Under the pieces are notes generated by a model. The model worked only from the letters and a program-made list of their open reading frames with translations. It was not told the DNA's origin and did no database searches. 39,270 nucleotides of DNA from a virus. This document shows positions 34,287 to 38,382 of this stretch, piece after piece. Positions within the stretch are counted from its first letter, which is position 1. Each line of letters begins with the position of its first letter. The DNA is taken from positions 1-39,270 of IMG/VR virus record IMGVR_UViG_3300046455_000267, one strand, 5' to 3'. Both the position numbers and the translations under genes were made by a program.

Positions 34287-35105
34287 ATGAACCAGCAACT
34301 CGAAGTCGTGTTTGATTTAGAGACCGTGCCGAGCCAGAACCCGGAACTGCTCGACTCGATCCGCGCTGACCTGCGCGAGAACTTCAAAGCGCCGAGCGAC
34401 ATGACCAAGGAACGCGCGTGCGCCGAACTCGGCATGACCGACCCGAATGAGGTCAAGTTCACGTCGAAGGCGCGCGCACTCGAACTTTGGGTTGATCGGT
34501 TCCGCGACGAAAAGCTCGAAGCGACCGCGCTCGAAACGCTGCACAAAACATGCTTCGACGGCGCGCTCGGACAAATCGCGGTCATTGGCTTCGCGCTCGA
34601 TGACGCGCCCGCGATGGTCTATCAAGCCGACTCGCTCGACATCGCCGCCGAGATGCGGCTTATCAGCGACTTTTTCACGACGCTCGAAGAGGCTTATTCG
34701 CCGTCGTCGATGCGCAATCCGCTGTTCATCGGTCACAACGTCGCCGGCTTCGATCTGCCGTTTTTGTTCAAGCGCGCCGTCGTGCTCGGCATCAAGCCGC
34801 CGGCGTTTATCCCGTTCGGCGCCGCCCCCTGGGCCGACAGCGTGTTCGACACGATGGTTCGATGGGATTCGCGCAATAACGTGTCGCTCGACAAACTCTG
34901 CAAGGCGCTCGGCGTGCCGGGCAAAACGGAAGGGATGAATGGCGCCGACGTGTGGCCGATGATCCAGGCCGGTCGCATCGGCGAGGTCGCGGCTTACTGC
35001 CTCGATGACGTCGACGCCGCGCGCAACGCGTTCCGCCGGATGACGTTCCGCCCGCTGCCGGTCGCGCCGGTCGTCATGCAGCTTGAGGATGAGTTCGCAT
35101 TTTGA
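34287..35105 (+). CDS. DEDD 3'-5' exonuclease (PolB exo-like)
   Basis: 272 residues from ATG 34287; longer frames are out of the promoter layout. Exo I: FDLET (D10, E12). Exo II: GHNVAGFDLPFL (D156). Exo III: AAYCLDDVDA (Y237, D241). This matches the PolB-type exonuclease domain found alone in phages. Possible partner of ERF/SSB recombination or of DNA degradation. Confidence 0.8.
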   Translation: MNQQLEVVFDLETVPSQNPELLDSIRADLRENFKAPSDMTKERACAELGMTDPNEVKFTSKARALELWVDRFRDEKLEATALETLHKTCFDGALGQIAVIGFALDDAPAMVYQADSLDIAAEMRLISDFFTTLEEAYSPSSMRNPLFIGHNVAGFDLPFLFKRAVVLGIKPPAFIPFGAAPWADSVFDTMVRWDSRNNVSLDKLCKALGVPGKTEGMNGADVWPMIQAGRIGEVAAYCLDDVDAARNAFRRMTFRPLPVAPVVMQLEDEFAF

Positions 35106-35287
35106 CCGAGCAACACCGCGCGGAATGCTATCAACGGTTCCGCGACGCAGTGCGCGATGGTCGCGCCGGCTATTACGGGAAAGCCGGCGCGCTCGTCGAG
35201 AGGATAAGGGCAGAGCACGGCGAGCAGGCCGCGCAAATCGCCCGAAGAGAACTGAACGCGTACATCAAAGACGACAAACGGATATGA
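35102..35287 (+). CDS. 61-residue hypothetical protein
   Basis: Starts at TTG 35102, overlapping the exonuclease stop by 4 bases. Helical and Arg-rich (AECYQRFRDAVRDGRAGYYGKAGALVERIRAEHGEQAAQIARRELNAYI). Overlaps the VRR-NUC start by 4 bases. Confidence 0.6.
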   Translation: MTEQHRAECYQRFRDAVRDGRAGYYGKAGALVERIRAEHGEQAAQIARRELNAYIKDDKRI

Positions 35288-35679
35288 AAGAGGCAAAGCG
35301 CGGCGTCGAGCATGTTCCGACCGAATCGACGGAGCAAATGATGTTCTTTCAATGGGTGAGGACAGCGTTCCCGAAACTGATCGCATTTCATGTGCCAAAT
35401 GGCGGGAAGCGCTCACTGCGAACCGCGGTGCGCCTGAAGAAAGAAGGCGTCACGACCGGGATTCCCGACATCATCATCGGCAAGGCATGCGGCATTTACT
35501 GCGGCATGTACATCGAACTGAAGCGCCAGAAGGGCGGCGCACTCAGCGAAGCGCAGAAAGACATGATTCGCGAACTGAAGGCCGAAGGCTATTACGTCGC
35601 GGTCTGCCGCGGGTTTGAAGAGGCCCGCCAGGAGTTGATTGCATATCTCGCGCTCGGGGAGCATCGCACCTATGGATGA
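35284..35679 (+). CDS. VRR-NUC domain nuclease
   Basis: 131 residues from ATG 35284. The VRR-NUC pattern is clear: ESTEQMMFFQWVR, HVPNGGKRS, KKEGVTTGIPDIIIG, then YIELKRQKGGALSEAQ (the E-x-K). This fold cuts branched DNA and is common in phage recombination or packaging clusters. It would resolve recombination intermediates made by ERF. Confidence 0.85.
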   Translation: MKEAKRGVEHVPTESTEQMMFFQWVRTAFPKLIAFHVPNGGKRSLRTAVRLKKEGVTTGIPDIIIGKACGIYCGMYIELKRQKGGALSEAQKDMIRELKAEGYYVAVCRGFEEARQELIAYLALGEHRTYG

Positions 35680-36070
35680 GGTTGCCGTCATTCTCAACGA
35701 TGCGACGCGCCAGCGGGCCGCGCAGGCGTTTGTCGACGCTCCCGATGGATGGGCGATGACGCTCAAGCCGCCGACCCGCACGACCGAGCAGAACGCGCTT
35801 CTGTGGCCTTTGCTAACCGAAGTCTCGCGCGGCGTGTGCTGGCACGGTCAATACCTGACCAAAGAGGCATGGAAAGACGTCTTTACCGCGTCACTTCGCA
35901 AGCAGCAAGTCGTTCCGGGTCTTGATGGCGGCTTTGTCGTCTGCGGGTTGTCCACGCGGGTTTTCAGCAAAAAAATGTTCTCCGACCTCATCGAATTGAT
36001 TCTGGCGTTCTGCGCAGAGCAAGGGGTTCGGATTTCCGCACCAAAGGGGTATGAATCATGGCAGCAGTGA
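35672..36070 (+). CDS. ninB: NinB-like recombination protein
   Basis: 132 residues from ATG 35672 (GGGGAG upstream). NinB pattern: APDGWAMTLKPPTRTTEQNALLWPLLTEVSRGVCWHGQYLTKEAWKDVF, then STRVFSKKMFSDLIELILAFCAEQGV. Lambda NinB (Orf) loads annealing proteins onto SSB-coated DNA. It fits beside ERF and SSB. Confidence 0.85.
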   Translation: MDEVAVILNDATRQRAAQAFVDAPDGWAMTLKPPTRTTEQNALLWPLLTEVSRGVCWHGQYLTKEAWKDVFTASLRKQQVVPGLDGGFVVCGLSTRVFSKKMFSDLIELILAFCAEQGVRISAPKGYESWQQ

Positions 36071-36597
36071 ACAAGCGCGGCGAAACCTATCACCGCTTGA
36101 TCGCGCTACTGAGCGCATCGGGCCGCGCGATGACCGAGAAGAGCATTCGCGACGAACTCGGCGTGTCGGCGTCGGTCTCCTGGAAGGTCATAACCCAGGC
36201 GCGCGAAGACGGTCAGGTCTATATCTGCAAATGGCTTCGCGCGACCGGCACGCCGACCGGCGGCGTCATGACACGCATGTTCCGATTCGGCACGCGCAAG
36301 GATGCAGCGCGGCCGGGCGCGTCGACGAACGCCGAGAATCAGCGGCGCTCACGCGAGCGCAAGGCGGCGGCGGCACAAAAAACCACTTGGGACGAGCGTC
36401 GCGCGGAGGCCCGCCGCATCGCCCGCGAAGCTCGCGAGAAAGCGAAGGTCGCGGCAGCAGAGAAAGCCCTGCGCGACGCCGACAAGGCGATTCGCGACGC
36501 GGCAAGGCAAGCGCAGCGCGAGACAGCCAAGCGACTGAGAGCGATCGTCGCGCAGCAGCCGCGCAATCCGTTCGCTTCGCTGATGGCTCAAGTCTAA
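36058..36597 (+). CDS. Winged-helix protein with long basic tail
   Basis: 179 residues. Residues 1-60 are a winged helix (GETYHRLIALLSASGRAMTEKSIRDELGVSASVSWKVITQAREDGQVYICKW). Residues about 95-168 are an Arg/Ala-rich coiled stretch (SRERKAAAAQKTTWDERRAEARRIAREAREKAKV). A DNA-bound regulator or nucleoid-like protein is possible. Starts inside the NinB end. Confidence 0.65.
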   Translation: MAAVNKRGETYHRLIALLSASGRAMTEKSIRDELGVSASVSWKVITQAREDGQVYICKWLRATGTPTGGVMTRMFRFGTRKDAARPGASTNAENQRRSRERKAAAAQKTTWDERRAEARRIAREAREKAKVAAAEKALRDADKAIRDAARQAQRETAKRLRAIVAQQPRNPFASLMAQV

Positions 36598-36610
36598 AAA
36601 TTCGCTCGGA

Positions 36611-36645
36611 AATACTATCTCGACGAGATGTTTTGAGGTAGTATT
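36611..36645 (+). promoter_or_regulatory. Operator-like palindrome before the C5 methyltransferase
   Basis: AATACTATCTC (36611-36621) and GAGGTAGTATT (36635-36645) are inverted with one mismatch. GGTAGTATT is also found at the 21190 promoter. TAGTAT or TATTCA could serve as -10, but the -35 is weak, so activity may depend on a regulator. Confidence 0.55.
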
Positions 36646-36668
36646 CAGCATCACCAGAGAGGGAACAA

Positions 36669-37994
36669 ATGGACTTCGGAAGCGTGTGCAGCGGGATAGA
36701 AGCGGCGAGCGTCGCCTGGCATGGCCTTGGGTGGCGTGCCGCATGGCTGTCGGAGATTGAAGCCTTTCCGTCCGCGCTGCTCGCGCACCGATACCCGGAC
36801 GTTCCCAATCTCGGCGACATGACAAAGATCGCGAGAGCGGTCTTGATCGGCGAAGTGAAGGCGCCTGGCGTGTTGGTCGGCGGCACGCCGTGCCAGGCGT
36901 TCAGCGTCGCGGGATTGCGCGAGGGTCTTTCTGACGCGCGCGGACAATTAACAATGAGTTATGTGAGGCTGCTCGATGCAATTGACTATGTTCGCGGACG
37001 CGCAGGAGAGCGCCCCGCCGTTGCCGTCTGGGAAAACGTTCCCGGCGTTCTCTCGTCCAAAGACAACGCCTTCGGCTGCTTTCTTGGAGCACTTGCCGGC
37101 GAAGATGTTGAACTCCAGCCGCCAGGGAAAAAATGGGCGAACGCTGGTTGTGTGTTTGGACCCTCGCGAACAGTCGCGTGGCGAGTCCTCGACGCCCAAT
37201 ATTTCGGAGTGGCCCAACGCCGCCGCCGTGTGTTCGTTGTCGCAAGTGCTCGAAAGGACTTCAATCCCGTCGACGTACTTTTTGAGTTCGACGGCGTGCG
37301 CCGGGATTCTGCGCCGAGCCGCGAAGCGGGGAAAGACGCTCCCGCCGGCACTCTTCGAAGCACTGACGGCGGCTGTGACGTCGATCACGCAATCGCCGGC
37401 CACTTGCAGGCATTCGGGGGGGGCAATACCCGAGGAAGCATTGACGTCGGAACCTGCCTGACGACAAGCGGGCAAAGGCTCGACTTCGACACGGAAACGT
37501 TCGTCGCGCAGGACTACAAGAGCGGCATGTTCTCGAGGACGGATTGCGCCAGCGCGCTCACGACATCGGAAGATAGGTCGCGCGCCGCGCCTCTCGCCGT
37601 CTGCGTCACTGGCGACATTACGCACACGCTAAAAGCCGAAGGGTTCGACGCGAGCGAGGATGGAACCGGGCGCGGACAGCCGATCGTCGCGGCCGACACG
37701 TATTCGATCTGCCTTGGCAGCGATCCAATCAATGCGCGCGAACTCGCGCAGCCGATTACGCGCCGCAATGGCGATCCCGGCACGATCGCATCGGGCGCAG
37801 CCGTGCGCCGCCTGATGCCCGTGGAGTGCGAGCGCCTTCAGGGATTCCCGGACGGATGGACGGATGTGCCCTATCGAGGAAAGCGTGCAGCGGACGGCCC
37901 AAGGTACAAAAGCTTGGGTAATTCGATGGCCGTTCCAGTTATGCGATGGATCGGCGAGCGCATCGAGCAAGCCAGTCGCAAAAATTTGTCCTGA
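36669..37994 (+). CDS. dcm: C5 cytosine DNA methyltransferase
   Basis: 441 residues. Motifs in order: I (DFGSVCSGIEA, 2-12), IV (GGTPCQAFSVAG, 71-82, catalytic Cys 75), VI (WENVPGVLS, 121-129), VIII (AQRRRRVFVVA, 182-192), IX (RRLMPVECERLQGFPDGW, 380-397), X (SLGNSMAVPV, 415-424). The target-recognition part lies between VIII and IX, with repeated D-T-ETF and GTGRG segments. Residues about 103-264 are also read in a second frame (see 36976). It likely protects phage DNA from restriction. Confidence 0.93.
   Translation: MDFGSVCSGIEAASVAWHGLGWRAAWLSEIEAFPSALLAHRYPDVPNLGDMTKIARAVLIGEVKAPGVLVGGTPCQAFSVAGLREGLSDARGQLTMSYVRLLDAIDYVRGRAGERPAVAVWENVPGVLSSKDNAFGCFLGALAGEDVELQPPGKKWANAGCVFGPSRTVAWRVLDAQYFGVAQRRRRVFVVASARKDFNPVDVLFEFDGVRRDSAPSREAGKDAPAGTLRSTDGGCDVDHAIAGHLQAFGGGNTRGSIDVGTCLTTSGQRLDFDTETFVAQDYKSGMFSRTDCASALTTSEDRSRAAPLAVCVTGDITHTLKAEGFDASEDGTGRGQPIVAADTYSICLGSDPINARELAQPITRRNGDPGTIASGAAVRRLMPVECERLQGFPDGWTDVPYRGKRAADGPRYKSLGNSMAVPVMRWIGERIEQASRKNLS
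36976..37461 (+). CDS. Complete ORF nested inside the methyltransferase in another frame
   Basis: 161 residues from ATG 36976 (GAGG eight bases upstream). The N-terminus is MQLTMFADAQESAPPLPSGK, then a TFPAFSRPKTTPSAAFLEHL region, then LDPREQSRGESSTPNISEWPN-AAVCSLSQVLERTSIPSTYFLS and ACAGILRRAAKRGKTLPPALFEAL. I recognise this pattern from memory as a widespread phage family of unknown function, so both frames appear to encode protein. The mixed composition and strong motif argue against a chance frame. Function unknown. Confidence 0.7.
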   Translation: MQLTMFADAQESAPPLPSGKTFPAFSRPKTTPSAAFLEHLPAKMLNSSRQGKNGRTLVVCLDPREQSRGESSTPNISEWPNAAAVCSLSQVLERTSIPSTYFLSSTACAGILRRAAKRGKTLPPALFEALTAAVTSITQSPATCRHSGGAIPEEALTSEPA

Positions 37995-38049
37995 TTAACT
38001 ACCTTTCTGAGAGCAAAGCCTGTATGATGAATCACATTGAGGTAGTTAA
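37995..38049 (+). promoter_or_regulatory. Promoter flanked by 10-bp inverted repeats
   Basis: TATGAT (38023-38028) is flanked by TTAACTACCT (37995-38004) and AGGTAGTTAA (38040-38049), perfect inverted arms 35 bp apart. The right arm overlaps the ribosome site of the 38050 gene. A repressor could loop or block translation and transcription together. The -35 is weak. Confidence 0.65.
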
Positions 38050-38382
38050 TTGAGCAAGGCAACACCGGCGGCAGAACGCAGATACATGGGTTTCGTCGCG
38101 GCGCGCGGGTGTTGCGTGTGCCGGCGCCTGGGATACGACGTCGACGGAATGCAGGCGATCGTTCATCACCGGATACACGGTCGCGGAGGGTGGGGGAAGG
38201 CATCGAACTATCACACGATCGGCCTTTGCCATTTTCACCACGTCGACCCGCACGAAGGCGTTCACGGTCTCAACAGCGAAGCATTCGAGGCGAAGTACGG
38301 ATTTAGCGAGATGGAACTGATCGACGAGACGCAGCGCGGACTAATCGTTCACGTACCAGAAAAAGAGAGGGTTTATCAGTGA
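38050..38382 (+). CDS. Ref-like RecA-dependent nuclease (HNH type)
   Basis: 110 residues from a TTG start (38050), preceded by GAGGT. The P1 Ref-type pattern is present: YMGFVAARGCCVCRRLGYDVDG, VHHRIHGRG, SNYHTIGLCHFHHVDPHEGVHGLNSEAFEAKYG. The Cys pair and repeated His residues form the metal site. Ref cuts DNA in RecA-formed D-loops; here it belongs to the recombination arm. Confidence 0.75.
   Translation: MSKATPAAERRYMGFVAARGCCVCRRLGYDVDGMQAIVHHRIHGRGGWGKASNYHTIGLCHFHHVDPHEGVHGLNSEAFEAKYGFSEMELIDETQRGLIVHVPEKERVYQ

Follow-up and report, generated by a model that had tools for sequence, protein, structure and literature searches.

The nested reading frame and its methyltransferase host gene

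The window analysed here is the whole 39,270-nucleotide stretch of a viral record (IMG/VR IMGVR_UViG_3300046455_000267), in which a gene for a C5-cytosine DNA methyltransferase (MTase) encloses a second open reading frame (ORF). The nested ORF lies wholly within that of the MTase, in the +1 frame relative to it, and covers MTase residues 103-264, with motifs VI and VIII. The features of the locus are as follows.

36669-37994, + strand: C5-cytosine DNA methyltransferase (MTase) gene, 441 aa, the host frame and very likely the older one (PF00145 E 8e-37, TIGR00675 E 1.9e-34, phrog_116 E 3.4e-86)
36675-36710, + strand: MTase motif I
36879-36905, + strand: MTase motif IV, GGTPCQAFS
36964-36966, + strand: in-frame TGA closing the nested frame upstream, four codons before the nested ATG
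36965-36968, + strand: Shine-Dalgarno GAGG of the nested gene, 7 nt 5' of the ATG, overlapping the in-frame TGA
36976-37461, + strand: nested gene, 161 aa (161 codons, ATG start; 0 stops in 97 divergent loci, core dN/dS 0.11-0.16)
36979-36993, + strand: QLTMF, candidate beta-sliding-clamp-binding motif, nested residues 2-6 (literature consensus pattern)
37032-37046, + strand: MTase motif VI, ENVPG
37195-37386, + strand: conserved nested core, residues 74-137 (invariant and near-invariant columns, AlphaFold2 pLDDT, MTase third-position constraint)
37215-37241, + strand: MTase motif VIII, QRRRRVFVV
37288-37329 and 37345-37386, + strand: two confidently predicted core helices (AlphaFold2)
37416-37423, + strand: G8 tract close to the nested 3' end (as G9 in relatives, it makes the nested frame continuous with the C-terminal half of the MTase)
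37809-37853, + strand: MTase motif IX
37917-37940, + strand: MTase motif X

By its motifs, the MTase is a complete C5 enzyme, with I, IV (PCQ), VI (ENV), VIII, IX and X in a single open frame. Its neighbourhood (35083-38382) is a recombination-type module, composed of a VRR_NUC nuclease, NinB, an unmatched ORF, the MTase and DUF968.

A preliminary description, made from the sequence alone, had reported a 161-codon ORF with a ribosome site in another frame over MTase residues of about 103-264, motifs VI and VIII included, which held exactly, as did the presence of the expected motifs in the MTase frame (PF00145, TIGR00675 and the motif set). Profile searches of each frame, which it had also proposed, matched the MTase and returned no Pfam or NCBIfam family for the nested protein. 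The only PHROG of note for the nested family is phrog_16143, which matches 39 of 120 members (best E 8e-15) and the window protein weakly (E 0.02); it is labelled 'DNA methyltransferase', a name that describes the methyltransferase and not the nested frame.

The start of the nested ORF bears the marks of selection in its own right. In the short form, the ATG is formed by an Asp or Asn codon followed by G, and 91 of 95 such codons end in T, against 38.5 expected. The anti-Shine-Dalgarno pairing 5' of this ATG reaches -3.83, in comparison with -1.80 under synonymous resampling, and is stronger than resampled in 77 of 97 loci (p 6e-11). These comparisons show that the nested ATG and Shine-Dalgarno are selected beyond the coding needs of the MTase, as in a separate translation start, although initiation and expression as such are inferred. 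A stop also lies close upstream of the ATG in many relatives, and its position in the window, four codons before the ATG, argues against the nested frame arising by frameshift from the MTase start.

In the nested protein, a linker connects a variable N-terminus to a conserved core, in which L88, L92, L103 and R114 are invariant, GILRRA is near-invariant and the net charge is +3. The AlphaFold2 prediction, obtained for the short form and a long form, is confident only for the two-helix hairpin (pLDDT 86-98 over about residues 101-140). No significant match to the core was found in the PDB by fold comparison, which in a viral library gave an MTase entry and an 81-aa protein of mycobacteriophage Thibault, and a profile search of solved structures gave no match. 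The long-form relatives start about 40 codons farther upstream.

Conservation of the nested frame and selection on both frames

An open frame within a single GC-rich sequence is weak evidence of a gene, and in the window alone the overlap stays open in 58% of the permutations of the MTase's own synonymous codons, so that its openness is not significant and the question is decided by comparison. In 97 dereplicated loci (<92% nucleotide identity) the nested frame is open in every one, with 0 stops against 88 expected from permutation of each MTase's own codons and 193 expected with the codon usage of residues 1-100. Chance openness in a GC-rich gene is thus feasible for the window and ruled out by the 97-locus test. 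In low-GC phages, with 41-43% GC across the overlap, the nested frame is open over 135-140 codons (permutation P 0.01-0.04 each). No such conservation of an open frame across the 97 loci was seen for the third forward frame or for any of the antisense frames. On the minus strand, two ORFs cover this stretch (36948-37625 and 36986-37363); they were rejected as candidates, given that the antisense frames are open in just 7-40 of the 97 loci, and both lack a Pfam match.

The pattern of substitution shows that purifying selection acts on both frames over the same DNA. Over residues 181-220, the third-position variability of the MTase is only 0.175-0.189, compared with 0.60 outside the overlap, and does not exceed that of the first positions; the chance that two sequences use differing codons for a shared amino acid of a four-fold family falls from 0.649 to 0.106. 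The drop in third-position variability is also present in the subset sampled without using the nested frame. In a simplified two-frame count over 73 disjoint pairs, the dN/dS of the nested core was 0.159 (95% bootstrap 0.120-0.217) and 0.111 (0.078-0.145), that of the MTase over the core was 0.12-0.18, and the same fictitious frame in a control stretch gave 1.5 and 0.83.

A referee may ask whether this constraint reflects an RNA element rather than a protein. Doubly silent changes, which alter neither protein, are frequent (0.45 per site) and not suppressed, which excludes an RNA element and indicates constraint on two proteins rather than on the nucleotides as such. Those silent in the nested frame alone reach 0.078, up from 0.018 in the control, which indicates that the constraint follows the nested codons.

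Distribution and age of the overlap

A tblastn search with the nested protein reached 147 phage records at 1e-5, and seeds of the long form and of low-GC loci extended to phages of Mycobacterium, Streptococcus, Ruminococcus, Bacillus, Akkermansia and Pseudanabaena. Relatives, P1 dmt among them, occur in phages with hosts in five bacterial phyla. Matches were also obtained in at least 500 plasmid records; most are E. coli plasmids, in which the match lies under a P1-type Dam/dmt gene, and Bifidobacterium is represented as well. Of 299 genomes from a single phylum, only 5 gave matches in a profile search. In both the viral and the genome collections, the core sits in the +1 frame of an MTase at nearly every locus, and the exceptions are damaged, split or truncated genes rather than independent ones.

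To guard against ascertainment by the nested protein, sampling was repeated with MTase residues 1-101 alone, which lie outside the overlap, and the outcome was the same: the nested frame is present in each of the 80 best viral loci, with the usual frame relation in 79 and an indel in the remaining one (L183).

No intact gene for the core was found away from an MTase locus. Two apparent standalone copies were rejected: gp104 of Thibault (81 aa) is the nested core preceded by an insert that carries HNH and divides the MTase gene, and the copy in locus L304 is a piece of an MTase that an insertion has interrupted. The core is lacking in ordinary PF00145 MTases sampled from Gammaproteobacteria and from three carrier genomes, and present in those that score high on a model of the window-type MTase. 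The absence of the core from generic PF00145 MTases, and of any intact copy outside the MTase locus, supports an overprinting event in which the MTase is the older gene. In the absence of expression data, translation remains an inference, and with this proviso the nested ORF is very likely a real, independently translated gene that was overprinted on an older phage C5 MTase gene.

The preliminary description had proposed that one DNA segment encodes two real proteins, and this held more strongly than claimed, both frames being under purifying selection, with expression inferred; its suggestion that one gene was born from the frame of the other is supported, with the MTase as the elder. It had stated that frequent stops in homologues of the nested frame and a lack of purifying selection there would refute it, and neither was seen (0 stops in 97 divergent loci; core dN/dS 0.11-0.16). 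Its recognition of the core as a widespread phage family held only in part, since the family is real in sequence, is seen only as an overlap and is unnamed. It had missed the N-terminus with its clamp-type motif and the existence of long-form relatives, whose start is about 40 codons upstream.

The clamp-type motif, fusions and possible function

The nested protein of the window begins with MQLTMF, in which QLTMF, located in a low-confidence stretch of the AlphaFold2 model, resembles the bacterial clamp-binding motif QL(S/D)LF, with Gln in first position, an aliphatic residue in second, Leu or Met in fourth and Phe or Leu in fifth (PMC11139829). With a search pattern written from that description, the motif was found 5' of the core in 53 of 120 loci, where synonymous shuffling predicts 2.1, and in the remainder of the nested protein in 2 loci; it was absent from the third frame and the MTase frame of the 120 loci. 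Its first codon falls at MTase residue 59, 62-63, 102, 105, 109 or 114, depending on the lineage, and the long forms likewise begin with it (QISMF, QLDLF, QLSIF or QLSLF). The recurrence of the same motif at differing positions is the pattern that selection for clamp docking would give. The motif is not family-wide, with no copy in more than half of these loci, among them those of the P1/enterobacterial clade, and the count must be read with care, given that the loci are related and not independent trials, and that the motif was noticed in the sequences before the test. No binding data exist, and the evidence inclines only modestly towards a clamp-linked function in the lineages that bear the motif.

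In a few relatives the nested frame is fused to part of the MTase. The G8 tract near the nested 3' end, confined to the window's near relatives, is replaced in close relatives by G9 (or GGGGGGAAA in L009), whereby the MTase frame terminates and the nested frame runs on into the C-terminal half of the MTase, with motifs IX and X. The L009 variant argues against a plain homopolymer error, and L221 has the same arrangement independently. The fusion was found in only 8 of 248 loci, the fusion-related loci being L005-L008, L129, L013, L009 and L221, and the G8/G9 tract could point to phase variation, to slippage or to a stable split enzyme. In the viral library, an entry of 521 aa under the name cytosine methyltransferase matches the nested model and, judged by length alone, would be compatible with such a fusion. 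As a separate observation, an indel in L125 (Faecalibacterium phage FP_Toutatis, 2126-2731) and in L183 makes the N-terminal part of the MTase read into the nested core, which gives a product, annotated or predicted, that is a hybrid of both frames; the indel may be an error or a real change.

The explanation preferred here is that the nested ORF would yield, by its own translation, a small and mostly disordered accessory protein, with a putative beta-clamp-binding short linear motif at the N-terminus in many lineages, a flexible linker and a C-terminal helical hairpin. This protein may dock on the host sliding clamp and work together with the MTase encoded by the same mRNA, which would bring methylation to newly replicated phage DNA. 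As a whole, with both expression and binding inferred, this account is judged rather better supported than its competitors taken together, by a narrow margin. The two genes are co-encoded throughout, and the partnership with the MTase rests on this co-encoding and the few fusions only. In the enterobacterial clade and P1, where the motif is missing, the core either functions independently of it or docks by other means. A bolder version, possible but less likely than not, is that an adaptor encoded inside its partner enzyme tethers the MTase to the replication clamp, so that phage DNA would be methylated during its synthesis; as part of the same tentative claim, the motif would have re-evolved several times as the nested start moved, and G8/G9 could fuse the adaptor to the C-terminal half of the MTase in the window's clade.

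Two rival readings accept a real overprinted gene, and both appear unlikely. The nested protein may act independently of the MTase, by occupying the beta clamp of the host, whose replication or repair would be hindered, a form of host takeover that is consistent with the motif statistics and with a known clamp-targeting phage protein, Gp168 of Twort (PMC11139829). However, Gp168 binds the DNA channel of the clamp and not the motif pocket (PMC11139829), and takeover would not require constant encoding inside an MTase or the occasional fusion to its C-terminal half. Alternatively, the N-terminal motif may be incidental or secondary, and the basic helical hairpin may do the work, for example by binding DNA or the MTase, or by regulating the latter. 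The core is indeed the most constrained part, with its near-invariant GILRRA and net charge of +3, and is kept where the motif is missing, but the occurrence of the motif at several registers, far over expectation, is hard to explain if it has no function.

Less plausible still, and considered very unlikely, is a frame transition, in which slippage or frameshifting joins the nested frame to parts of the MTase and produces an alternative isoform rather than a separate gene. In its favour are the G8/G9 tract, the in-frame fusion to the MTase C-terminal half in a few relatives, and the reading of the MTase N-terminal part into the nested core in L125 and L183. On the other hand, the G tract is found only in near relatives and the fusion in 8 of 248 loci, while a stop lies just upstream of a nested ATG that is selected together with its Shine-Dalgarno. 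That there is no second protein, and that the signal is due to an element in the RNA or DNA or merely to chance in a GC-rich sequence, is all but excluded: the open frame of the window alone, kept in 58% of permutations, permits it, whereas the frequent both-frame-silent changes (0.45 per site), the nested-only-silent changes (0.078, against 0.018 in the control) and the 0 stops against 88-193 expected oppose it.

Overprinted viral genes have been reviewed in general (PMC8227390), and overlapping phage genes are of a known kind; the novelty here lies in how broadly the overlap occurs, in a host gene that is catalytic and in the recurrence of a clamp-type motif. No description of the MTase overlap was found in the literature searched, which is not proof of absence, as most subscription journals were not covered. 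The Rz/Rz1 genes of lambda are a fully nested phage gene pair, and the present case is similar in having a second gene wholly inside another, in a different frame of the same strand and with a start of its own; it differs in that the host gene is catalytic and that the overlap, which the inspected records leave unannotated, persists in phages from five bacterial phyla. In the dcm/vsr genes of E. coli, a C5 MTase gene overlaps another gene in another frame at the ends only, by a few codons, whereas the nested gene lies fully inside the MTase, over motifs VI and VIII. Proteins that bind the clamp through QL(S/D)LF motifs include Pol II, Pol IV and Hda of E. coli (PMC11139829), with which the nested protein shares a short Gln-aliphatic-x-Leu/Met-Phe motif in a disordered tail, at the N-terminus as in Hda. 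It is not related to them in sequence, the motif is missing in a large part of its family, and its binding is inferred.

If the interpretation is correct, the nested gene would rank with the most widespread overprinted genes known from dsDNA phages, concealed in genes annotated simply as methyltransferase, including P1 dmt and those of hundreds of P1-like plasmids. Past genetics on such genes may have changed two proteins together, and MTase family profiles may contain residues that are conserved owing to the other frame. The clamp link, if true, suggests how phages could couple DNA modification to replication.

Finally, insertions interrupt the locus in some genomes. In several Omegaviruses (Thibault, Schatzie and Constella; L309, L310 and L311, around 1340-2870), a stretch with an HNH endonuclease gene interrupts both the MTase and the nested frame at one point; the annotators of Schatzie record undetermined intron boundaries, and no Rfam intron match was obtained in Thibault or Schatzie. 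In a contig of an Acidobacteria MAG (L120, 774-3930), an insert of about 1.7 kb, without an Rfam match, lies within the MTase, between its N-terminal part and the nested core.
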